The translations under genes and the position numbers were made by a program. A model generated the notes under the pieces. The model was given only the letters and a program-made list of their open reading frames with translations, was not told where the DNA came from and did no database searches. This document shows, one piece after another, positions 20,412-49,417 of a stretch of 64,000 nt of DNA (within the stretch, counting starts at the first letter, position 1; each line of letters begins with the position of its first letter). Source of the DNA: Lysobacter sp. FW306-1B-D06B. GTDB lineage: Bacteria > Pseudomonadota > Gammaproteobacteria > Xanthomonadales > Xanthomonadaceae. The stretch lies in NCBI RefSeq assembly GCF_038446665.1, contig NZ_CP151802.1:1984001-2048000 (forward strand), given 5' to 3'.

Positions 20412-20438
20412 TGTCGAATTCGGTACGCTTCGTTCGTC
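20412..20438 (+). promoter_or_regulatory. ECF42-type promoter candidate upstream of the MATE gene
   Basis: TGTCGA at 20412-20417 is followed after exactly 17 bases by CGTC at 20435-20438, the last two spacer bases being TT. The same element with the same spacing precedes yceI (42791) and the YCII operon (47939, minus strand). The -10 element lies 59 bp from the ATG at 20498. It matches the TGTCGA/-10 CGTC pattern I recall for ECF42 sigma factors, and an ECF42-type sigma gene is in this window. Confidence 0.6.
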
Positions 20439-20497: not shown

Positions 20498-21946
20498 ATG
20501 AGCCACGAACCCGAATCGACCCTCGACCCTGGCGCGAATGGCGCGGGATCACCCGCTGTGCGCGCCTCGCTATGGTCCGAGTTGCGCGAGGCCATCCGCG
20601 GCACCAACGCCGACTACACGAAGATCCCGCTGCGCCGCGCGGTGTTCCTGCTCGCGGTGCCGATGGTGCTGGAGCTGGTGCTGGAATCGACCTTCGCGGT
20701 GGTCGACATCTTCTTCGTCGCCAAGCTCGGGCCGTCGGCGGTGGCGACGGTGGGGCTGACGGAAACCTACCTGTTCCTGCTGTACTCCATCGCGATGGGG
20801 CTGGCGATGTCGGTCACCGCGATCGTGGCCCGGCGCATCGGCGAGAACAAGCGCGAGGAAGCGGCGATCACCGCGGTGCAGGCGATCCTCATTGCGCTAT
20901 TGGTGTCGCTGCCGTTCGCGATCATCGGCATCGTCTGGGCGAAGGACCTGCTGCGGCTGATGGGCGCCGACGCGTGGAGCATCGAGCACGGTTACCGCTA
21001 CACGCAGTGGATGCTCGGCGGCAACGCGGTGATCATGCTGCTGTTCGTGATCAATGCGATCTTCCGCGGCGCCGGGGACGCGGCCATCGCGATGCGCGTG
21101 CTGTGGCTGGCGAACGGCCTGAACATCGTGCTGTGCCCGCTGCTGATCTTCGGCCTGGGCCCGATTCCTGCGCTGGGCATCGAGGGCGCGGCGATCGCCA
21201 CCAATATCGGTCGCGGCGCAGGCGTGGCATTGCAGCTGTACGTGCTGTTCCATGGCGGAAAGCACATCCGCGTGACGATGTCGCAGATCGCCGTGCACGC
21301 TGCGGTGCTGTGGAACATCGTGCGCACCTCGCTGGGCGGCATCGGCCAGATGCTGGTGTCGATGACGTCCTGGATCTTCCTGATGCGCATCCTGTCGAGC
21401 ATCGGCAGCGACGCGGTCGCCGGTGCGACCATCGCCATCCGCATCATGATGTTCACGCTGATGCCGGCCTGGGGCATGTCCAACGCGGCCGCGACGCTCG
21501 TGGGGCAGAACCTCGGCGCCGATCACCCCGAGCGCGCCGAAGCGGCGGTGTGGCACATCGGCTGGTACAACATGGCCTTCACCTTCGCCATGTCGGTCGC
21601 GTTCTTCCTGTTCCATCACGAGCTGATCGCGATCTTCACCTCCGACCCGGAAGTGATCGAGGTGGGCGGCGAATGGCTGAGGATCCTGTCGTATTCGTAC
21701 TTCGTGTACGGCTGGTGGATGGTGTCGGTGCAGGCGTTCAACGGCGCCGGCGATACGGTCACGCCGACCAAGATCAACGTCGTGTTCTTCTGGCTGATCC
21801 AGATTCCGCTGGCTTATCTGCTCGCCATCCATCTGGGCTGGCAGTATTCGGGCGTGTTCTGGGCGGTGTTCGTCTCCGAGACCGCGGTGGGTCTGTTCAC
21901 GCTGTGGCTGTTCTCGCGCGGCAAATGGAAAACGGTGAAGGTGTAG
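20498..21946 (+). CDS. MATE-family efflux transporter
   Basis: The 482-residue inner-membrane antiporter has twelve predicted transmembrane helices in two MatE repeats. Recognisable segments are LLAVPMVLELVLESTFAVVDIFFVAKLG (first helix pair), GIEGAAIATNIGRG between the repeats, and the second-repeat QMLVSMTSWIFLMRILSSIGSDAVAGATIAIR. A roughly 45-residue hydrophilic N-terminus precedes helix 1. MATE pumps export cationic drugs or metabolites using Na+ or H+ gradients. The GNAT gene starts 7 bp after its stop, forming an operon. A TGTCGA-N17-CGTC promoter candidate and a leader hairpin lie upstream, tying expression to the ECF sigma factor encoded at 43869. Confidence 0.93.
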   Translation: MSHEPESTLDPGANGAGSPAVRASLWSELREAIRGTNADYTKIPLRRAVFLLAVPMVLELVLESTFAVVDIFFVAKLGPSAVATVGLTETYLFLLYSIAMGLAMSVTAIVARRIGENKREEAAITAVQAILIALLVSLPFAIIGIVWAKDLLRLMGADAWSIEHGYRYTQWMLGGNAVIMLLFVINAIFRGAGDAAIAMRVLWLANGLNIVLCPLLIFGLGPIPALGIEGAAIATNIGRGAGVALQLYVLFHGGKHIRVTMSQIAVHAAVLWNIVRTSLGGIGQMLVSMTSWIFLMRILSSIGSDAVAGATIAIRIMMFTLMPAWGMSNAAATLVGQNLGADHPERAEAAVWHIGWYNMAFTFAMSVAFFLFHHELIAIFTSDPEVIEVGGEWLRILSYSYFVYGWWMVSVQAFNGAGDTVTPTKINVVFFWLIQIPLAYLLAIHLGWQYSGVFWAVFVSETAVGLFTLWLFSRGKWKTVKV

Positions 21947-39554: not shown

Positions 39555-42008
<2,454 letters not shown>

Positions 42009-42020
42009 GCACGACGATCT

Positions 42021-42062
42021 GAAAGCCCCTCTCCCGCGTGCGGGAGAGGGGTGGGGTGAGGG
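42021..42062. terminator. Family B hairpin after the TonB receptor
   Basis: GCCCCTCTCCCGC and GCGGGAGAGGGG form a 10-12-bp stem 13 bp after the stop at 42008. It is an inverted copy of the family B repeats at 39394 and 56060 and sits in terminator position. Confidence 0.7.
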
Positions 42063-42115
42063 CAGGGCCGCCGTCACCTTCCAACGCGTTTCCCTGCATT
42101 GCGCGGTGTCTCCCC

Positions 42116-42460
42116 ATGAGCGACGCCTACCTCGCCCACCTGCACGACCTGCTCGATCCGCTCGGTGCCGTCACTACGCGCGCGATGTTCGGCGGCCACG
42201 GTGTCTATCTCGACGGCGCGCTGATCGGCGTGGTGATGGGCGAGGCGCTGTACCTGAAAGTCGACGACGAGACGCGACTGCTCTTCGAAGCCGCCGGGTG
42301 CGAACCCTATGTGTACCTGGGACAGGCCGAGCCGATCACGATGAGTTACTGGTCGCTGCCCGACGCGGCGATGGATTCGGCCGAAGCGATGCGCCCGTGG
42401 GCGGAACTGGCGCGCGCTGCGGCGTCGCGGGCGTCGCGGAAGCCCAAACGCGATCGGTAG
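42116..42460 (+). CDS. TfoX N-terminal domain protein
   Basis: The 114-residue protein is a stand-alone TfoX-N domain: YLAHLHDLLDPLGAVTTRAMFGGHGVYLDGALIGVVMGEALYLKVDDETRLLFEAAGCEPYVY, with the family's RxMFGGxGxY motif (residues about 22-31). Full-length TfoX/Sxy activates competence genes together with CRP; single-domain copies are common and of uncertain role. The C-terminal basic tail (RASRKPKRDR) is not part of the domain. The next genes are unrelated. The start at 42116 gives the standard domain boundary. Confidence 0.9.
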   Translation: MSDAYLAHLHDLLDPLGAVTTRAMFGGHGVYLDGALIGVVMGEALYLKVDDETRLLFEAAGCEPYVYLGQAEPITMSYWSLPDAAMDSAEAMRPWAELARAAASRASRKPKRDR

Positions 42461-42480
42461 CGGGTACGCGTCGCAGTGGC

Positions 42481-42530
42481 ACCGTCATCCCGGCGAAGGC
42501 CGGGACCCAGGCGGTCACGCTCGGCGTGTC
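42481..42530. repeat. Family C repeat
   Basis: CATCCCGGCGAAGGCCGGGA (42485-42504) followed by CCCAGGCGGTCACGC is nearly the same as the element at 39293-39330. It overlaps the 3' end of one reading frame of the small frameshifted ORF at 42532-42712. Confidence 0.75.
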
Positions 42531-42531
42531 A

Positions 42532-42712
42532 TCACCGCGCCGTCTGCGCCTGCGCTGAGCGGTACCTGGACATGAGCTTCTGCAGCCTTTGCTCCTCCAG
42601 CGCGTTCCTGGCGAACGCCTGAAGGCGCAGGTTGAACTGCTCCAGCGCCGCTGGATCGGCGAATACGATCCGTGATGCGGAAGAGGAAACGTACATCCGA
42701 CTGCTGCGGCAT
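42532..42712 (-). pseudogene. Small ORF apparently interrupted by a +1 frameshift
   Basis: An ATG at 42712 is preceded by a strong AAGGAG Shine-Dalgarno sequence and encodes MPQQSDVRFLFRITDRI. After about 16 codons this frame loses the G/C bias at third codon positions. The neighbouring frame (+1) gains it and continues as VFADPAALEQFNLRLQAF and then QRLQKLMSRYRSAQAQ to a TGA at 42532. A 60-residue protein read across the two frames is the best explanation. It could be a decaying gene, a sequencing error or a programmed shift; I see no obvious slippery heptamer. I recognise no family. Confidence 0.5.
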
Positions 42713-42790
42713 GGCTGGCTCCTTGTAGGCCTGCGGCGTACCTTCCGGAACCGCTGCACGCTTCGTCCATGAGAAAAGGCCGGGGCCCCA

Positions 42791-42817
42791 TGTCGATTCC
42801 GGGCCTTTCCATTCGTC
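42791..42817 (+). promoter_or_regulatory. ECF42-type promoter candidate for yceI-DUF1428
   Basis: TGTCGA (42791-42796), 17 bases, CGTC (42814-42817), with the last two spacer bases TT. The -10 ends 50 bp before the ATG at 42868. The first 11 bases (TGTCGATTCCG) are identical to those of the YCII-operon promoter candidate at 47939-47929. Confidence 0.7.
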
Positions 42818-42867
42818 GTTCCAGAGAAGGCCGCAATAGCGCTGGCCGTACACAACGAGGAATCCCA

Positions 42868-43461
42868 ATGTCCGCACGCCGCATTTCGCCGTTCGCGACG
42901 CTTGTCGCCGTCGCGCTGTTGTCTGCCGCCGCCACGGCCACGGCCGCGCCCGCCACCTACGAGATCGACCCCGCCCACACCTTCCCCAGTTTCGAAGCCG
43001 ACCACATGGGCATCTCGGTGTGGCGCGGCAAGTTCAACCGCAGCAGCGGCGAGATCCTGCTGGACCGCGCCGCGGGCACGGGCAGCGTCAAGGTGGTCAT
43101 CGACACCGACAGCATCGACTACGGCCTGGACGCGATGAACGAGCACGCGCGCAACGACACGCTGCTGGACACGGCGAAGTTCCCGCAGGCCACCTACACC
43201 GGAACGCTGGCGGACTTCCGCGACGGCGCGCCCACGCGCGTGAAGGGCGAGTTGACGCTGCACGGCGTCACGCGCCCCGTGGACCTGACGATCGAGCGCT
43301 TCAAGTGCATCCCGCATCCGCTCAACAAGCGCGAGCTCTGCGGCGCCGACGCGCGTGGCGAATTCCGCCGAGACGCGTTCGGCATCGACGCCGGCAAGGA
43401 CTACGGCTTCGACATGAACGTGGCGCTGCGCATCCAGGTCGAAGCCACGCGCAAGCCGTGA
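42868..43461 (+). CDS. YceI-family periplasmic protein
   Basis: The 197-residue protein has a signal peptide (PFATLVAVALLSAAATATA) and the lipocalin-like YceI barrel (YEIDPAHTFPSFEADHMGISVWRGKFNRSSGEILLD; IDTDSIDYGLDAMNEHARNDTLLD; VKGELTLHGVTRPVDLTI; FGIDAGKDYGFDMNVALRI). Family members bind isoprenoid-quinone-like lipids and respond to stress or base. The start has an ACGAGG element upstream. An ECF42-type promoter candidate lies 50 bp upstream, and DUF1428 follows 70 bp downstream on the same strand, so this pair probably belongs to the regulon of the convergent sigma-factor operon. Confidence 0.92.
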   Translation: MSARRISPFATLVAVALLSAAATATAAPATYEIDPAHTFPSFEADHMGISVWRGKFNRSSGEILLDRAAGTGSVKVVIDTDSIDYGLDAMNEHARNDTLLDTAKFPQATYTGTLADFRDGAPTRVKGELTLHGVTRPVDLTIERFKCIPHPLNKRELCGADARGEFRRDAFGIDAGKDYGFDMNVALRIQVEATRKP

Positions 43462-43531
43462 AGCAGACCTCGCGCTAACACCGCATCCCGCATCCTGCGG
43501 CTTCCCGCCGCGTATCCCAGGAGTGAAAACG

Positions 43532-43897
43532 ATGGCTTTCTATGTCGATGGTTTCGTCGTCCCGGTTCCCAAGGACAGCGTGGACGCCTACCGCAAGCTG
43601 GCGCGCACGGCCGGCAAGGTCTGGCTCGAGTACGGTGCGCTGGAATACCACGAGTGCGTCGCCGACGACGTCCAGCCGGGCAAGACCACGTCCTTCCCGC
43701 AGTCGGTGAAACTCAAGCCGAACGAGGTCGTGGTGTTCTCGTGGATCACCTACAAGTCGCGCGCCGCGCGCGACCGGATCAACGCCAAGGTGATGAAGGA
43801 TCCGCGCATCGCCGGGCTGGACCCCAAGAGCATGCCGTTCGACGGCAAGCGCATGTTCTGGGGCGGGTTCAAGCCGATCGTTTCGATGACGGCATAA
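43532..43897 (+). CDS. DUF1428 family protein
   Basis: The 121-residue cytoplasmic protein is a typical DUF1428 (dimeric alpha/beta barrel-like) member: FYVDGFVVPVPKDSVDAYRKLARTAGKVWLEYGALEYHECVADDV, SFPQSVKLKPNEVVVFSWI and MPFDGKRMFWGGFKP. Its biochemical role is unknown. The start at 43532 has CAGGAG nine bases upstream. The family is often encoded near YCII/DGPF and VOC proteins and their ECF sigma factor, as here. Its last 29 bases overlap the 3' end of the convergent sigma-factor gene. Confidence 0.93.
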   Translation: MAFYVDGFVVPVPKDSVDAYRKLARTAGKVWLEYGALEYHECVADDVQPGKTTSFPQSVKLKPNEVVVFSWITYKSRAARDRINAKVMKDPRIAGLDPKSMPFDGKRMFWGGFKPIVSMTA

Positions 43898-45191
43898 GCG
43901 CGCCCGCGTCGCCGGACGCCGCCGCGCATTCGGCGGCGCGCCGGTGCAGCAGCGCCTGTTCGCGCGCGTTGCGGGTCATGTCCGCAGCGCGTTCGAATTC
44001 GATGCGTGCCTCGTCCCAGCGCTCGAGCTTCTTGAGCAGGTCGCCGCGCACCGCGGGGAGCAGGTGGTAGTCCTTCAGCGCCGGCTCGTCCTTCAGCGCG
44101 TCCACGACCGCCAATCCCGATGCCGGGCCGAACAACATCGACAGCGCCACCGCGCGGTTGAGTTCGATCACCGGCGAGGGCGTGATGCGCGCCAATGCGC
44201 CGTACAGGCCGACGATCGCGGCCCAGTCGGTTTCCTCCGCGGTCCTCGCGCGGGCATGGCAGGCCGCGATGGCGGCTTGCAGCGTGTACGGGCTGCCCGC
44301 CGGATGGCGCGCGGAGCCGAGCTTCTGCGCGCGCTCCAGTGCGCTCAATCCGCGGTGGATCAGCAGCTGGTCCCAACGCGCGCGGTTCTGTTCGAGCAGC
44401 AGCACCGGTTCGCCATCGGGACCGATGCGTGCGGCCGCGCGCGAGGCCTGGATTTCCATCAGCGCAATAAGCCCGTGCACTTCCGCTTCGTCGGGCATCA
44501 GCTCGGCGAGCATGCGGCCCAGGCGCTGCGCGTCCTCGCACAGGCCGGGGCGCATCCAGTCGTCGCCGGCGGTGGCCGCATAGCCTTCGTTGAAGATCAG
44601 GTAGATCACTGCCAGCACCGACGACAGGCGCTCGTTCAGTTCGTCGCCGCGCGGCACTTCGTAGGGCACCTGCTTCTCGGCCAGCGTGCGCTTGGCGCGG
44701 ACGATGCGCTGGGCGATGGTGGCTTCGGGCACCAGGAACGCGCGCGCGATCTCGTCCGTGGTCAAGCCGCCGAGCAGGCGCAGCGTCAAGGCCACCTGCG
44801 CATGCGTGGGCAGCACGGGATGGCAGGCTGTGAAGACCAGGCGCAGCAGGTCGTCGTTGAACGGGTTGTCGAGCGCGTCGATGTGCGCGTCGTCGGCGTG
44901 CGCCTGTTCGTCTTCCAGTTCGCGTGCGATCTCCTCGTGCTTGCGCTGCTGAAGCTTGCTGCGGCGCAGGCGGTCGATGGCGCGGTGCTTGGCGGTGGCC
45001 ATCAGCCATGCGCCGGGCTGGTCGGGCACGCCGCTGTCGGGCCATTTCTCCAGCGCGGCGACGAGCGCGTCCTGCGCGAGTTCCTCGGCCAGCCCCACGT
45101 CGCGCACCATGCGCGCGAGCGAGGCGATGAGTCGGGCGGATTCGATGCGCCAGACGGCATCGATGGTGCGATGGAGGTCGGTCGCCGTCAT
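43869..45191 (-). CDS. ECF RNA polymerase sigma factor with C-terminal extension (ECF42-type)
   Basis: The 440-residue sigma factor has region 2 at about residues 10-80 (ARLIASLARMVRDVGLAEELAQDALVAALEKWP; GAWLMATAKHRAIDRLRR) and region 4 at about 115-172 (VALTLRLLGGLTTDEIARAFLVPEATIAQRIVRAKRTL). A 260-residue C-terminal extension of helical, TPR-like sequence follows (VIYLIFNEGYAATAG..., LLIHRGLSALERAQKLG..., WAAIVGLYGALARITPSPVIELNRAVA). This architecture and the YCII (DGPF) neighbours define the ECF42 group, which lacks a membrane anti-sigma factor, and none is encoded here. It lies 209 bp after the SRPBCC gene with a family A repeat between, and is probably the last gene of the operon. Confidence 0.92.
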   Translation of the reverse strand: MTATDLHRTIDAVWRIESARLIASLARMVRDVGLAEELAQDALVAALEKWPDSGVPDQPGAWLMATAKHRAIDRLRRSKLQQRKHEEIARELEDEQAHADDAHIDALDNPFNDDLLRLVFTACHPVLPTHAQVALTLRLLGGLTTDEIARAFLVPEATIAQRIVRAKRTLAEKQVPYEVPRGDELNERLSSVLAVIYLIFNEGYAATAGDDWMRPGLCEDAQRLGRMLAELMPDEAEVHGLIALMEIQASRAAARIGPDGEPVLLLEQNRARWDQLLIHRGLSALERAQKLGSARHPAGSPYTLQAAIAACHARARTAEETDWAAIVGLYGALARITPSPVIELNRAVALSMLFGPASGLAVVDALKDEPALKDYHLLPAVRGDLLKKLERWDEARIEFERAADMTRNAREQALLHRRAAECAAASGDAGALMPSSKRSA

Positions 45192-45240
45192 AGGCGGACG
45201 ATGGAACCATCGTGGGAGGTCAGGTGCAAGTGCGGTCCAT

Positions 45241-45369
45241 CCTCTCCCCTTGCGGGAGAGGGACAGGCCGCCGCAGGCGGCCAGGGAGAGGGGTAACCGG
45301 TCGCGGCAGGCGCGCTTCGCGCGACCCCTCATCCGACCTTCGGGCACCTTCTCCCTCAAGGGGAGAAGG
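45241..45369. repeat. Composite family A repeat between SRPBCC and sigma-factor genes
   Basis: It has the same general design as 24221-24347: a hairpin at each end (CCTCTCCCC...GGGAGAGG and CCTTCTCCC...GGGAGAAGG). The right half contains ACCCCTCATCCG-CTTCGGGCACC almost as in the other copy. An extra GGCCGCC/GGCGGCC hairpin is present in the left half. It occupies most of the 209-bp gap inside the putative operon. Confidence 0.85.
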
Positions 45370-45400
45370 AATCAACGACACGTACTGAAAGCAAAAGGCT

Positions 45401-45928
45401 TTACCCCTGCTCCGAAACCCGCTTCAGGTTCGCCAGCCCGCGCTCGAAATCGCCGCCGATCATCGCGTCCATGTTGAACACCAGGCCCATCACCTTGCCG
45501 ATGTACGGCTGCGGGCCGTGCATCGCCCAGGTCACGCGCGTGCCGTCGCCTTCTGGCGCGAGCAGGAATTCGGCCGTGTTGTGCGCCGTCATCGGCCGGG
45601 TGAAATCGAGCTGGATGCGCACGCACGTCGGCGTGGATTCCAGGATCTCCATGCGTCCCGCGCCGGCCTTGGAATTGCCATCCCAGGTGTAGACCGCGCC
45701 GGTGCCCGCCGGGCTGCCGGCGATCTCGCGCTTCATCTGCGGGTCCATCGCCTCGAACGGCGACCACGCGCGCCACCGATGGAAATCCTCGATCTGCGCA
45801 TGGATGCGCTGCGGCGGCGCTTTCACCACGATGCTGCGTTCGATGCGGAAGGTGTCCGGCCGCGTCGCCGCGAACAGCAGCACGGCGACGATGAGCACCA
45901 GCACGATCAGTCCGATGATCTTGAACAT
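45401..45928 (-). CDS. SRPBCC-family (polyketide cyclase/AHSA1-like) protein
   Basis: The 175-residue protein has one N-terminal transmembrane segment (IIGLIVLVLIVAVLLFAAT), then a START-like SRPBCC domain (FRIERSIVVKAPPQRIHAQIEDFHRWRAWSPFEAMDPQMKREIAG...YTWDGNSKAGAGRMEI). The FxxWxxWSPF pattern is typical of the polyketide_cyc2 branch that binds hydrophobic ligands. The membrane anchor implies action at the periplasmic face or in the envelope. It lies 9 bp after the YCII gene stop, in the operon that also encodes two VOC proteins and the ECF sigma factor. Confidence 0.9.
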   Translation of the reverse strand: MFKIIGLIVLVLIVAVLLFAATRPDTFRIERSIVVKAPPQRIHAQIEDFHRWRAWSPFEAMDPQMKREIAGSPAGTGAVYTWDGNSKAGAGRMEILESTPTCVRIQLDFTRPMTAHNTAEFLLAPEGDGTRVTWAMHGPQPYIGKVMGLVFNMDAMIGGDFERGLANLKRVSEQG

Positions 45929-45937
45929 GTAACGTCC

Positions 45938-46363
45938 TCAGTTCCGGTTGGCTTGGGTGGATTGCTGCAACTTTTCGAAATCGCAGGCGGCGCCCTGCAC
46001 GTCGGCGGGGAAGTCGTCGAACTCCATGACCTGGCGTATCTCGATCACTTCGTTTTCCGCGCCCGGGCAGCGCGATGCCCAGGCGATGGCTTCCTCGCGC
46101 GACTTCACCTGGATCATCCAGTAGCCGCCGAGCACTTCCTTGGCTTCGGAGAACGGGCCGTCGGTGACGTGCGGCCTGCCGCCTTCGAAGCTCACGCGCG
46201 CGCCCATCGACGGCGGATGCAGGCCGTCGAGTGCGAGCAGCACGCCGGCTATCTGCAGCGATTCGTTGTATTTCATCATCACCGCGACGCGATCGGCGGG
46301 CGGCAGGGTGCCGGGCTCGGCGGATTCGTAGCCCTTGGGGATCATCAGCATCATGAAGCGCAT
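45938..46363 (-). CDS. YCII (DGPF)-family protein
   Basis: The 141-residue protein has the YCII/DGPF fold: MRFMMLMIPKGYESAEPG, LLALDGLHPPSMGARVSFEGGRPHVTDGPFSEAKEVLGGYWMIQVKSREEAIAWASRCP. The name-giving DGPF tetrapeptide is present in VTDGPFSEAKE. Such proteins resemble muconolactone isomerases, and their role is unknown. DGPF genes are the standard neighbours of ECF42 sigma factors. It is one of two YCII paralogues in this operon, preceded by a 29-bp gap and followed by the SRPBCC gene after 9 bp. Confidence 0.93.
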   Translation of the reverse strand: MRFMMLMIPKGYESAEPGTLPPADRVAVMMKYNESLQIAGVLLALDGLHPPSMGARVSFEGGRPHVTDGPFSEAKEVLGGYWMIQVKSREEAIAWASRCPGAENEVIEIRQVMEFDDFPADVQGAACDFEKLQQSTQANRN

Positions 46364-46392
46364 GGTCGTGTCTCCGTCTGCAATGGATGCGA

Positions 46393-46800
46393 TCAGCCCG
46401 CCTGGTCCGGCGTGCCGCTCATGTGCACGAATTCCCACTGGTGGCCGTCCAGGTCTTCGAACGCGCGCGAGTACATGAAGCCGTAGTCCTGCGGATCGCC
46501 AGCGCTCTTCGCGCCGGCCTTCAGCGCCTTGGCATGGATGTCGTCGACGGCTTCGCGGCTGTCCAGCGACAGGCAGGTGATGGCCTCCAGCGTGCTGTGC
46601 GCATCGGCGACGGGCTTGCTCGTGAACGTGCCGAAGAACTCGCGCGTGAGCAGCATCACGTAGATCGTGTCGCTGACGACCAGGCAGGCGCCCTTGTCGT
46701 CGGTGAACTGCGGGTTGAAGGAATAGCCGAGCGATTCGAAGAAGGCCTTCGACTTCGGCAGGTCGTGGCAGGGGAGGTTGACGAAGATCTGGGTGGGCAT
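46393..46800 (-). CDS. VOC-family (glyoxalase/bleomycin resistance-like) protein
   Basis: The 135-residue protein has a vicinal-oxygen-chelate fold in two beta-alpha-beta-beta-beta units: IFVNLPCHDLPKSKAFFESLGYSFNPQFTDDKGACLVVSDTIYVMLLT and DIHAKALKAGAKSAGDPQDYGFMYSRAFEDLDGHQWEFVHM. The terminal Glu of WEF is a common metal ligand in the family. Members act as isomerases, dioxygenases or resistance proteins; the substrate is unknown here. A 197-bp gap containing family C-like hairpins separates it from the preceding PhnB-like gene, but gene order and strand suggest one operon. Confidence 0.9.
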   Translation of the reverse strand: MPTQIFVNLPCHDLPKSKAFFESLGYSFNPQFTDDKGACLVVSDTIYVMLLTREFFGTFTSKPVADAHSTLEAITCLSLDSREAVDDIHAKALKAGAKSAGDPQDYGFMYSRAFEDLDGHQWEFVHMSGTPDQAG

Positions 46801-46860
46801 GGGTGGGTTCCTGGGGTGAAGGTTTCTTTGGTTGCTCTGCTGCGGGAATCCAACCGTGGA

Positions 46861-46926
46861 GGCGTCACGCCCTCCGGAGGACGCAGTGACGCCGGCGCGC
46901 TGGATTCCCGCCTGCGCGGGAATGAC
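46861..46926. repeat. Hairpin pair (family C relative) in the gap 46801-46997
   Basis: GGCGTCAC (46861-46868) pairs with GTGACGCC (46886-46893), and GATTCCCGC/GCGGGAAT (46903-46922) forms a second hairpin. The second resembles the CATTCCCGCGAAGGCGGG type at 31456. Elements of the first hairpin (GCGTGAC and CTCCGGA) recur next to the family C copy at 55951-56010. Confidence 0.65.
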
Positions 46927-46997
46927 AGCTGGGGCTTTCGCGGGAACGATGGGGACTTCGTAAGCGCCAACGAAGGCGCTGGAACTGCGCGGAAGGG

Positions 46998-47438
46998 CTA
47001 CAGATCCTTTTCGCAATTCACCATCCACGACACGCCGAATCGGTCGACGAACATGCCGAAGCGCGCGGCCCAGAAGGTCTGGTCGAGCGGCATGATCACC
47101 TGGCCGCCTTCGCTCAGCGCGTTGAACACGCGTTCGGCCTCGCCGATGGAATCGACGTTGAGTGCGATGGACACGCCCTTGATGCCTTCGTACGGGTGCT
47201 CGGGTACGGAGTCCGAGCCCATGATCGCCTGGTCGCCCACCACCAGCCGCGCATGCATGATGCGATCGCGGTGCGATTCGGGGACGTGGTCGCACGCGGG
47301 CGTGTCGCCGAAACGCATCAGCGTTTCCAGCGTGCCGCCCAGCACCTGCTGGTAGAAGCGGAAGGCGGCTTCGCACTGGTCGTCGAAGCTGAGGTAGGCG
47401 TTGATCTTCATGGGCGGCTGGCCTGTGGTGGCGGTCAT
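46998..47438 (-). CDS. VOC-family protein, PhnB-like
   Basis: The 146-residue protein is of the PhnB/3-demethylubiquinone-9 3-methyltransferase-like VOC branch: INAYLSFDDQCEAAFRFYQQVLGGTLETLMRFGDTPACDHVPE, HARLVVGDQAIMGSDSVPEHPYEG, GGQVIMPLDQTFWAARFGMFVDRFGVSWMVN. The C-terminal FGVxWxVNC ending is diagnostic. Function is unknown. Its ATG overlaps the stop of the upstream YCII gene by four bases. A second start (MKINAYLS) nine codons downstream is possible. Confidence 0.92.
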   Translation of the reverse strand: MTATTGQPPMKINAYLSFDDQCEAAFRFYQQVLGGTLETLMRFGDTPACDHVPESHRDRIMHARLVVGDQAIMGSDSVPEHPYEGIKGVSIALNVDSIGEAERVFNALSEGGQVIMPLDQTFWAARFGMFVDRFGVSWMVNCEKDL

Positions 47439-47863
47439 TGCGAACGTGCCTCCAGTTGCGCGCGGATGCGCTCGTGTTGCGCCTTCAGTTCCGGCGAGAG
47501 ATCGCCGCCGCAGGTGCCGTCTTCGTAGACCTGGCGGATCTCGATCTCGCTCATGCCGCCGTCCGGATTCGGGCAGCGCTTGACCCATTCGATCGCCTCC
47601 TGCAGCGAGGCGGTCTGGAAGATCCAGAAGCCGGCGATGAGTTCCTTGGTCTCGGCGAACGGCCCGTCGACGACGCTGCGGCGGTCGCCGTCGAAGCGTA
47701 CGCGCGCGCCCTTCGCGCTGGCGTAAAGGCCCTGGCCGTCCAGCATCACGCCGGCCTTGGCCAGCTCTTCGTTGTAGCGGCCCATCTGCGTGAGCATTTC
47801 TTCGCTGGGCATCGCGCCGGATTCGCTTTCGGGCGTGGCGCGCACGATCACCATGAACTTCAT
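47435..47863 (-). CDS. YCII (DGPF)-family protein, first gene of the ECF operon
   Basis: The 142-residue protein opens MKFMVIVRATPESESGAMPSEE and contains VMLDGQGLYASAKGARVRFDGDRRSVVDGPFAETKELIAGFWIFQTASLQEAIEWVKRCP, with the DGPF core. It is the second YCII paralogue in the cluster; both keep the full-length fold. It heads a minus-strand operon (YCII, PhnB-like, VOC, YCII, SRPBCC, sigma factor). A TGTCGA/CGTC promoter candidate lies 50 bp upstream (47913-47939), so the sigma factor probably drives its own operon. Confidence 0.93.
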   Translation of the reverse strand: MKFMVIVRATPESESGAMPSEEMLTQMGRYNEELAKAGVMLDGQGLYASAKGARVRFDGDRRSVVDGPFAETKELIAGFWIFQTASLQEAIEWVKRCPNPDGGMSEIEIRQVYEDGTCGGDLSPELKAQHERIRAQLEARSQ

Positions 47864-47912
47864 CGTCGTCTCTCCGGTCGGGCGGCGGGCAATCCCGCGC
47901 TCTTGTGAGGAC

Positions 47913-47939
47913 GACGAAGCAGCGGAGGCGGAATCGACA
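47913..47939 (-). promoter_or_regulatory. ECF42-type promoter candidate of the YCII/VOC/sigma operon
   Basis: On the minus strand, TGTCGA (47939-47934) and CGTC (47916-47913) are separated by exactly 17 bases ending in TT. The -10 lies 49 bp upstream of the ATG at 47863. It agrees with the ECF42 promoter signature I recall and with the elements at 42791 and 20412. Confidence 0.75.
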
Positions 47940-47973
47940 TGCCTGCGAAAAAACATTCCGACCGGCGGTCGGT

Positions 47974-48858
47974 TCAGGCGCGGACGCTCTCCAGCAGCCA
48001 GTCCACGAAGCCCTGCGCGGCCGGCCGCAGGCGCCGGTGCGCGGGATAGACCACGTAGTAGCCCCAGCGGGCGGGCAGGGCCGGGCCGGGCAGGCGCACC
48101 AGTTCGCCCGATTCCAGGTAGGGCACGGCGATGCGCGAGCGCGCCAGGGCGATGCCCAGTCCCGCGGCGGCGGCCTTCATGGCGTCGGTGGTGTCGCTGA
48201 AGGTGTAGCGCTCCTCGACCTTCGCCCCGTGCACGTGCGCGCCCCGAAACCAGTCGTGCCAGCCCTGTCGCGCGTGGTCGGCGATCAGCGGATGGCGCGC
48301 GATGTCGGCCGCCGTCTCGATGCAGGCCTGGCGCGCATAGGCGGGCGAGACCACCGGGAACAGCGCCTCGTCCATGAGGAAATGCGAAGTGAGCCCGGGC
48401 CAGTGCCCCGGCCCGTGGCGAATGCCCAGGTCCGGGCCGCCCTCGTCGAAGCGGGTGAGCGCGATTTCGGTGTCCACGTTGAGGCGGATGCCCGGGTTCG
48501 CGCTTGTGAACGCCGCCAGCCGCGGCAGCAGCCAGGTGTAGGTCAGCGAGTGCAGGGTGGTGATGCGCACGCGGTCGTGCGCTTCGCGTGCGCCACGCAG
48601 GCTGCGCAGCACGCCGTCGACGTCGGCCAGCGCGGTGCCGGCGGCGTCGGCGAGCTGGCGACCTTCGGCCGTCAGCGAGACCCCGCGCGCATGGCGCTGG
48701 AACAGGACCACGCCCAGGCGCGATTCCAGCTTGCGCACGTGGTGGCTGACCGCGCTGGCGGTGAGGTGCAGCTCCTCGGCCGCGTGGGCGAAGTTCTGGT
48801 GGCGCGCCGCCGATTCGAAGGCCGTCAGGGCCGGCAGCCAGTCCGCTCTCAGGGCCAT
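47974..48858 (-). CDS. LysR-family transcriptional regulator (GcvA-like)
   Basis: The 294-residue regulator has an N-terminal winged HTH (LPALTAFESAARHQNFAHAAEELHLTASAVSHHVRKLESRLGVVLFQRHARGVSLT, residues 8-63) and a periplasmic-binding-like effector domain. The LTASAVSHHVRKLE helix and RHGPGHWPGLTSHFLMDEALFPVVSP pattern place it in the GcvA/AmpR-like branch. It is divergent from a cupin gene, with 145 bp between, where LysR proteins commonly act. A CAAA-N5-TTTG dyad at 48867-48879 lies just upstream of its start. The effector is unknown. Confidence 0.92.
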   Translation of the reverse strand: MALRADWLPALTAFESAARHQNFAHAAEELHLTASAVSHHVRKLESRLGVVLFQRHARGVSLTAEGRQLADAAGTALADVDGVLRSLRGAREAHDRVRITTLHSLTYTWLLPRLAAFTSANPGIRLNVDTEIALTRFDEGGPDLGIRHGPGHWPGLTSHFLMDEALFPVVSPAYARQACIETAADIARHPLIADHARQGWHDWFRGAHVHGAKVEERYTFSDTTDAMKAAAAGLGIALARSRIAVPYLESGELVRLPGPALPARWGYYVVYPAHRRLRPAAQGFVDWLLESVRA

Positions 48859-49003: not shown

Positions 49004-49417
49004 GTGGGCCGTCCTTTCACCATCGAACCCGACACCGTCAGCCGCGCCGCGATGCAGGCGCTGGACGTCGACTCCGTGCCCGCACAGCCGGTCGGCGAAG
49101 GTTGCACGCGGCGGGACCTGCCCGCCGGCCCCGGCCTGCGTGTGTGGGTGGTCGACATGGCGCCGGGCGCGCAGTGGCCGGTCCTCAACCACCATGAGAC
49201 GGGCGAGTCGTATTACGTCATCAGCGGCGAAGTGATCGAAGGCGAAGCGCGATTCGGCGCCGGCACCTACGTTTGTTTCGCGCCCGACAGCCGCCACCGC
49301 CCGCACACCGAGACCGGCGTGCGCCTGATCGGCATGAACCTGGGCGACGCCGCATTCCTCGCCGCCGGTGGCAGTCCCGAATCGATCACGCACTGTTACC
49401 ACCCGACGCAGGGTTGA
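49004..49417 (+). CDS. Cupin-domain protein
   Basis: The 137-residue protein begins at a GTG (49004) with GGGAG upstream, and I see no better ATG. It is a single cupin: LRVWVVDMAPGAQWPVLNHHETGESYYVISGEVIEGEARFGAGTYVCFAPDSRHRPHTETGVRLIG. Metal ligands of motif 1 (NHHETGESYYVISG) and motif 2 (His in SRHRPH) are present. The function could be a ChrR-like sensor domain or a small dioxygenase; it cannot be decided. It faces the LysR gene and is a likely target. An EamA transporter gene follows 58 bp later. Confidence 0.85.
   Translation: MGRPFTIEPDTVSRAAMQALDVDSVPAQPVGEGCTRRDLPAGPGLRVWVVDMAPGAQWPVLNHHETGESYYVISGEVIEGEARFGAGTYVCFAPDSRHRPHTETGVRLIGMNLGDAAFLAAGGSPESITHCYHPTQG

Follow-up and report, generated by a model that had tools for sequence, protein, structure and literature searches.

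In Lysobacter sp. FW306-1B-D06B (Xanthomonadaceae), we find it highly probable that a single, autoregulated sigma factor of the ECF42 group reads a dispersed regulon through promoters of the form TGTCGA-N17-CGTC. The sigma factor is encoded in a stretch of 64,000 nucleotides, hereafter the window (positions 1,984,001 to 2,048,000 of contig NZ_CP151802.1, assembly GCF_038446665.1, forward strand). That it recognises these promoters we infer from features that can be read in the DNA itself: the sites, where they lie ahead of genes, how they are conserved and how they co-occur with ECF42. A first-pass annotation of the window had described a self-contained regulon of two convergent operons; this restriction does not hold: no fewer than seven additional sites of this kind stand before genes elsewhere on the chromosome.

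The two promoter elements of that annotation are present letter for letter. TGTCGATTCCGGGCCTTTCCATTCGTC (42791-42817, plus strand) lies 50 bp before the yceI ATG at 42868, and TGTCGATTCCGCCTCCGCTGCTTCGTC (47939-47913, minus strand) lies 49 bp before the ATG of the first YCII gene at 47863. Pfam likewise agrees with the gene families given for both operons (YceI and DUF1428; YCII, VOC, VOC, YCII, SRPBCC and sigma). A further exact copy, TGTCGAATTCGGTACGCTTCGTTCGTC (20412-20438), had been overlooked; it stands 59 bp before the ATG, at 20498, of a gene for a MATE transporter. The features are as follows, with coordinates counted from the first letter of the window.

20412..20438, plus strand: third ECF42-type promoter element in the window, TGTCGAATTCGGTACGCTTCGTTCGTC, exact match
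20498..21946, plus strand: MATE family efflux transporter (MatE PF01554, E=4.5e-66; TIGR00797 above cut-off)
42791..42817, plus strand: predicted promoter element of yceI-DUF1428, TGTCGA-N17-CGTC, TGTCGATTCCGGGCCTTTCCATTCGTC, exact match
42868..43461, plus strand: yceI, 197 aa, with a signal peptide judged by eye (PF04264, E=2e-34)
43523..43897, plus strand: DUF1428 protein (PF07237, E=8e-43)
43869..45191, minus strand: ECF42 sigma factor, 440 aa, with a TPR-like C-terminal extension (Sigma70_r2, Sigma70_r4_2, DUF6596)
45401..45928, minus strand: SRPBCC / Polyketide_cyc2 protein with an N-terminal hydrophobic stretch judged by eye (PF10604, E=7e-17)
45938..46363, minus strand: YCII (DGPF) protein 2 (PF03795, E=4e-21)
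46393..46800, minus strand: VOC protein 2, Ble-like (PF22677, E=3e-8)
46998..47438, minus strand: VOC protein 1, YjdN-like (3-dmu-9_3-mt), start at 47438 or 47411 (PF06983, E=5e-13; the match to NF007537, YjdN, is below that model's cut-off)
47435..47863, minus strand: YCII (DGPF) protein 1, operon head (PF03795, E=3e-20)
47939-47913, minus strand: predicted promoter element of the YCII-VOC-VOC-YCII-SRPBCC-sigma operon, TGTCGATTCCGCCTCCGCTGCTTCGTC, exact match

The sigma protein carries sigma-2 (Sigma70_r2) and sigma-4 (Sigma70_r4_2) domains, both above the Pfam cut-off, and DUF6596 at residues 188-288; it is the sole DUF6596 match in the genome. Its AlphaFold model (mean pLDDT 85), built on an alignment of 28 proteins, the window's own sigma included, is helical in its sigma-2 and sigma-4 portions (residues 5-90 and 111-172) and again at 183-426. 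Compared with the PDB by Foldseek, the model gave four matches at E<=0.001, all of them TPR proteins; the TM-scores, taken by target length, were modest (0.39-0.54). The long TPR-like C-terminal extension that had been proposed is thus borne out by the helical region at 183-426 and by the best PDB matches; a C-terminal TPR tail of roughly 200 residues is a feature of ECF42 proteins. The sigma gene had also been said to lack an anti-sigma gene, and indeed no anti-sigma domain was found by Pfam in the eight genes of the two operons or in the scanned neighbours (TonB receptor, TfoX_N, LysR, cupin and EamA); the cupin protein, at 49004-49417, matches Cupin_7, a family named after the anti-sigma factor ChrR, by its cupin part only. 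With two YCII (DGPF) genes in its operon, and with the ECF42 form of promoter ahead of it, the window's sigma is, judged by every ECF42 feature that could be tested, an ordinary ECF42 protein, as first proposed. The ECF42 promoter consensus of Liu et al. (2018) is reportedly TGTCGA / CG(A/T)C. We also considered ECF41 as the identity of this protein and rejected it: TIGR02957 (SigX4, cut-off 323 bits) is not among the best 25 of its 47 NCBIfam matches, the 25th of which scores 28 bits. Two proteins of the genome match TIGR02957 above cut-off, both encoded elsewhere than the window's sigma.

Within the window, TGTCGA-N{15,19}-CGTC occurs ten times compared with 1.58 expected from shuffles, and three of the ten, namely the two operon elements and that of the MATE gene, have the exact form TGTCGA-N15-TTCGTC. 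The first-pass annotation had suggested a scan of the full genome for TGTCGA-N17-CGTC, and this gave 20 matches in 4.24 Mb against 5 for the reversed pattern. The exact form was found 7 times, compared with 1 for its reversed pattern and 0.2 expected from the base composition of the window; a chance motif was therefore rejected. When two close variants (ATCGTC and AACGTC) are added there are nine sites, each followed at 32-68 bp by a start codon on the same strand, the start codons having been chosen by a heuristic picker that uses codon GC pattern and a string resembling a ribosome-binding site. These sites head the YCII operon, the yceI-DUF1428 pair, genes for MatE, MFS, GST, RibD_C and 3-dmu-type VOC proteins, another YCII gene and a gene for a 116-aa protein without a Pfam match. 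With the spacer between TGTCGATT and TTCGTC left free at N11 to N15 there are six matches, five of them with N13, which is the spacing of the nine promoters. The remaining 11 of the 20 TGTCGA-N17-CGTC matches were not counted as promoters.

Three observations stand beside this count. One of the 11 uncounted matches, L003, has a YgjP-like gene 43 bp downstream. At genome position 827711, TGTCGA-N17-CGAC (L125) lies 142 bp before a gene for an HlyD-type adaptor, a possible further target that was left uncounted. At 3314477-3314505 on the minus strand, a second TGTCGATT/TTCGTC element with N15 spacing (L110) overlaps another promoter-like element, the one ahead of the YCII gene in locus L018.

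Both operon elements are conserved in the genus. All 12 genus genomes analysed have 4-8 exact sites. We read nine ECF42 loci of the genus, that of the window plus eight fetched ones; in each the motif stands before both yceI and the YCII head, with the yceI-DUF1428 pair convergent to the sigma operon in eight. The spacers have diverged while the two hexamers persist in loci of several genera; the rows of this comparison were chosen for having the motif, and nine of nine genus loci is the fairer figure. In the closest relative, L030, the sites are identical or one base off, which alone proves nothing. Given both elements in nine of nine loci and diverged spacers, one sigma factor very probably drives both operons, as the first-pass annotation had supposed.

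Beyond the genus loci we turned to named ECF42 loci, taking the best 80 of 549. Homologs of the YCII1 type were present within 5 kb of ECF42 in 66 of these loci, of VOC1 in 25, of SRPBCC in 15, of YceI in 11 and of DUF1428 in eight. Five of the 11 yceI loci (L030-L033 and L037) have the exact motif, and in L066 and L079 the DUF1428-yceI pair is preceded, by eye, by a variant with CGAC as the -10. The YCII-head motif also recurs in further named loci outside the genus loci read.

The number of sites follows the presence of ECF42 across the family. We compared 149 genomes, 89 with DUF6596 and 60 without, and found on average 3.84 TGTCGA-N15-TTCGTC sites in the former versus 0.35 in the latter (reversed pattern: 0.12 and 0.05). 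At least one site was present in 82 of 89 genomes with DUF6596 versus 14 of 60 without, and two or more in 65 of 89 versus one of 60. Eleven genera hold genomes both with and without the sigma factor; the sigma-bearing genomes average more sites in genera g3, g4, g6, g7, g43 and g51, and genera g11 and g27 lean likewise. When genomes were sorted by sigma set, with ECF41 presence defined as a best TIGR02957 E below 1e-50 and so including matches under the curated cut-off, the mean was 2.79 for ECF42 only (n=34), 4.49 for both (n=55) and 0.23 for neither (n=52). The eight genomes with ECF41 only have 0, 0, 0, 0, 0, 0, 1 and 8 sites (mean 1.12), that is, 0-1 sites in seven of eight. Order-wide, the 14 genomes of a further family, f12, average 3.36 sites, and the mean is 0.33 for 72 genomes from ten other families. 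Of the f12 sites, 46 of 47 have A or T directly after TGTCGA, versus 12 of 24 in the ten motif-poor families (Fisher p 2e-6).

The genes behind the sites in relatives are of the same kinds. We took a census of 121 proteins encoded downstream of motif sites, 112 from fetched regions and nine from other motif loci, after dropping seven duplicate loci and one repeated site; the 112 regions were hand-picked among the matches listed and form a non-random sample. The census (families overlap) holds 18 YCII, 18 GST, 11 MFS, 10 MatE, 10 3-dmu-type VOC, 10 Glyoxalase and 9 AHSA1 proteins, and smaller groups of 6 RibD_C, 4 DUF1428, 3 YceI, 3 DUF4287, 2 ABC and 2 GFA. The twelve largest BLAST clusters account for 99 of the 121 and each spans 2-8 genera; the other 22 are pairs or singles, some of them doubtful. 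The 112 fetched sites also share bases beyond the hexamers: the base after TGTCGA, a position outside the search pattern, is A or T in 99%; G precedes TTCGTC in 78% and, equally often, follows CGTC; and at 7 and 9-12 bp after CGTC, 70-87% of the bases are purines.

Several observations, however, tell against a single ECF42 sigma factor reading all of these promoters. The Mann-Whitney p of 8e-19 for site number versus DUF6596 ignores kinship among the genomes, the 60 genomes without ECF42 include incomplete ones, and 7 of the 89 ECF42 genomes have no exact site. Genus g23 is reversed (0 and 0 sites with the sigma factor; 0 and 1 without), and genus g34 hardly differs (1 and 3 with; 1 and 1 without). 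In genome G078 yceI is not convergent but sits upstream of the YCII operon in the same orientation, with no DUF1428 match seen there, and four of the 11 named loci with yceI near ECF42 (L034, L069, L074 and L075) are without the motif. The YCII operon of the window is interrupted by two gaps of about 200 bp, 46801-46997 between the two VOC genes and 45192-45400 between the SRPBCC and sigma genes, which could house a separate sigma promoter or a terminator; because of these gaps, cotranscription of the sigma gene with the rest of the operon, as judged from gene order, is only likely. Finally, genome G116 (genus g16) has eight sites (L355-L362), seven of them before regulon-type families (two YCII, GST, AHSA1, VOC, DUF4287 and ABC), and no ECF42 was found in it; the gene may fall in a gap of the assembly, which has 180 contigs, or may have been lost recently. 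Seven sites were inspected in genomes other than G116 in which no ECF42 was detected: one, the exact element L181 of genome G132, lies 27 bp upstream of a YCII gene, two (L187 and L188) seem to fall inside the same kind of long open reading frame, and four have no convincing gene.

Another ECF sigma factor, for example the product of one of the two TIGR02957/ECF41 genes of the Lysobacter genome, might instead read the promoters, and G116, with the sites, ECF41-like genes and no ECF42 found, is in keeping with this. The ECF41 promoter is of similar layout, TGTCACA-n16-CGTC in the excerpted text of PMC3426412, and both of the Lysobacter genes match TIGR02957 above its cut-off. However, the -35 differs (TGTCGA versus TGTCACA), and in the other genomes site number tracks ECF42 rather than ECF41, on which ground ECF41 was rejected as reader of the sites; we consider a reader of this kind improbable. 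To the same low degree we would credit a division of control, with ECF42 reading the YCII operon and the scattered genes and with yceI-DUF1428 mainly under another regulator. The four motif-less yceI loci fit such a division, but the motif precedes yceI in every genus locus read and also in L033 and L037, the CGAC form precedes the DUF1428-yceI pair in L066 and L079 (by eye), and the census contains the motif before yceI three times and before DUF1428 four times.

Still less probable is a local regulon in which the sigma factor drives the two convergent operons only. Both operons do bear the element and sit together in the genus loci, yet seven more sites of the same or near form lie at promoter-like distances, 32-68 bp before start codons, elsewhere in the genome, and the same target kinds bear the motif in other genera. 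The least probable of these alternatives is that the two flanking sites have no function and resemble each other by chance or inheritance. The near identity of the sites in L030 is in keeping with it; the excess of exact sites over the genome-wide expectation argues against it, as do hexamers that are kept while the spacers diverge in loci of several genera.

Control of both arms by one sigma factor would also have a consequence at the locus itself. At their 3' ends the sigma and DUF1428 genes share 29 bp (43869-43897), so that transcripts started from the two facing promoters by one and the same sigma factor would collide, which might limit sigma output; BLAST match ranges indicate an overlap of these genes in L030 and L032 as well. 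No classical sigma-70 promoter was found in 42000-48500. By eye, both of the gaps of about 200 bp look like inverted repeats or REP elements. Directly upstream of the YCII operon and on the same strand lies a LysR-type gene (47974-48858, minus strand; PF00126 and PF03466), which has this position in every genus locus read but one, L234 (eight of nine); the Cupin_7 gene (49004-49417, plus strand) is divergent to it. A terminator-like hairpin at 47972-47958 precedes the ECF42 promoter of the YCII operon, and such matches are no commoner than in shuffles.

Known ECF42 systems share much with the one described here. According to excerpts of PMC6180224, overexpression of RpoE10, an ECF42 protein of S. 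meliloti, raised six genes; for four, which form two operons, the rise was at least 2-fold, and the operon of RpoE10 itself apparently did not respond. The targets, SMc01149-SMc01148 and SMb20475-SMb20474, encode proteins with hydrophobic-ligand-binding and glyoxalase-like domains and have promoters of the TGTCGG/CGTC type upstream (PMC6180224). RpoE10 and the Lysobacter sigma factor have in common the TPR tail, the lack of an anti-sigma gene, a YCII neighbour, promoters of this general form (TGTCGG-spacer-CGTC for RpoE10), targets of the glyoxalase-like and hydrophobic-ligand-binding kinds, and distant targets, one RpoE10 operon lying, judging by locus tags, on another replicon; the difference is that here nine promoters are predicted, among them those of its own operon, YceI and efflux pumps. 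We infer that the hydrophobic-ligand-binding domain of SMc01149 is SRPBCC-like. The TPR extension and a nearby YCII-domain gene are also shared with Sven_0747, Sven_4377 and Sven_7131 of Streptomyces venezuelae and with ECF-10 of P. putida, as these are described in a review (PMC8999054, in excerpt); in the ECF42 proteins of both species the extension is required for activity, and ECF-10 is tied to oxidative stress and antibiotics. Excerpts of PMC8103513 name S. venezuelae and X. campestris as the ECF42 cases so far described. ECF41 proteins likewise have a C-terminal extension as regulator and CGTC as the -10 but differ in their -35, TGTCACA, and in that the neighbouring COE genes were the sole targets found in the work excerpted from PMC3426412, and the ECF41 protein SigJ has SnoaL_2, not TPR, as its fused domain (excerpts of PMC8103513).

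VOC targets, a distant target operon and probably SRPBCC targets are thus already known for ECF42. As far as the literature search reached, the size, conservation and content (YceI, efflux pumps and GST) of the regulon are new. Among the matches listed, from open-access literature without the main ECF42 papers, no report placed YceI, MATE, MFS or GST under ECF42, which is weak evidence of novelty, and the excerpts of PMC9769791, PMC5507510 and PMC9205884 contain nothing on ECF42 targets. The first-pass annotation had seen in the YceI and SRPBCC proteins a lipid- or quinone-handling side that it did not know as a described part of ECF42 regulons. For SRPBCC this novelty probably fails, given SMc01149 and the 15 of 80 named loci with an SRPBCC homolog close to ECF42; for YceI it stands, no earlier link having appeared among the matches listed.

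We propose that, on a shared chemical stress, perhaps an electrophile or another toxic small molecule, the ECF42 sigma factor would turn on the YCII/VOC/SRPBCC operon to which it belongs and the convergent pair yceI-DUF1428, together with no fewer than seven other genes, which encode MATE and MFS efflux proteins, GST- and RibD_C-type proteins for conjugation or reduction, and YCII, VOC and small proteins. The products may then export, conjugate, reduce or sequester the toxic molecule. Published work on other ECF42 proteins suggests that the TPR tail probably switches the sigma factor through a protein partner. A wider idea, which we offer tentatively and hold to be somewhat less likely than its opposite, is that in this family and, by site counts, in f12, ECF42 governs chemical defence across the genome, and that YCII or VOC proteins sense the toxicant and signal back to the TPR tail. 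If true, the logic would be like that of SoxRS or Mar, one TPR-tailed sigma factor co-triggering efflux (MATE, MFS), GST conjugation, reduction, binding by VOC, YCII and SRPBCC proteins, and a periplasmic YceI carrier.

To conclude, little is known of what ECF42 sigma factors and YCII/DGPF proteins do, and nine predicted promoters, with target kinds that recur across genera, name the genes to examine. The content of the regulon points to small-molecule efflux and detoxification, and its promoters could be used as reporters for the signal.

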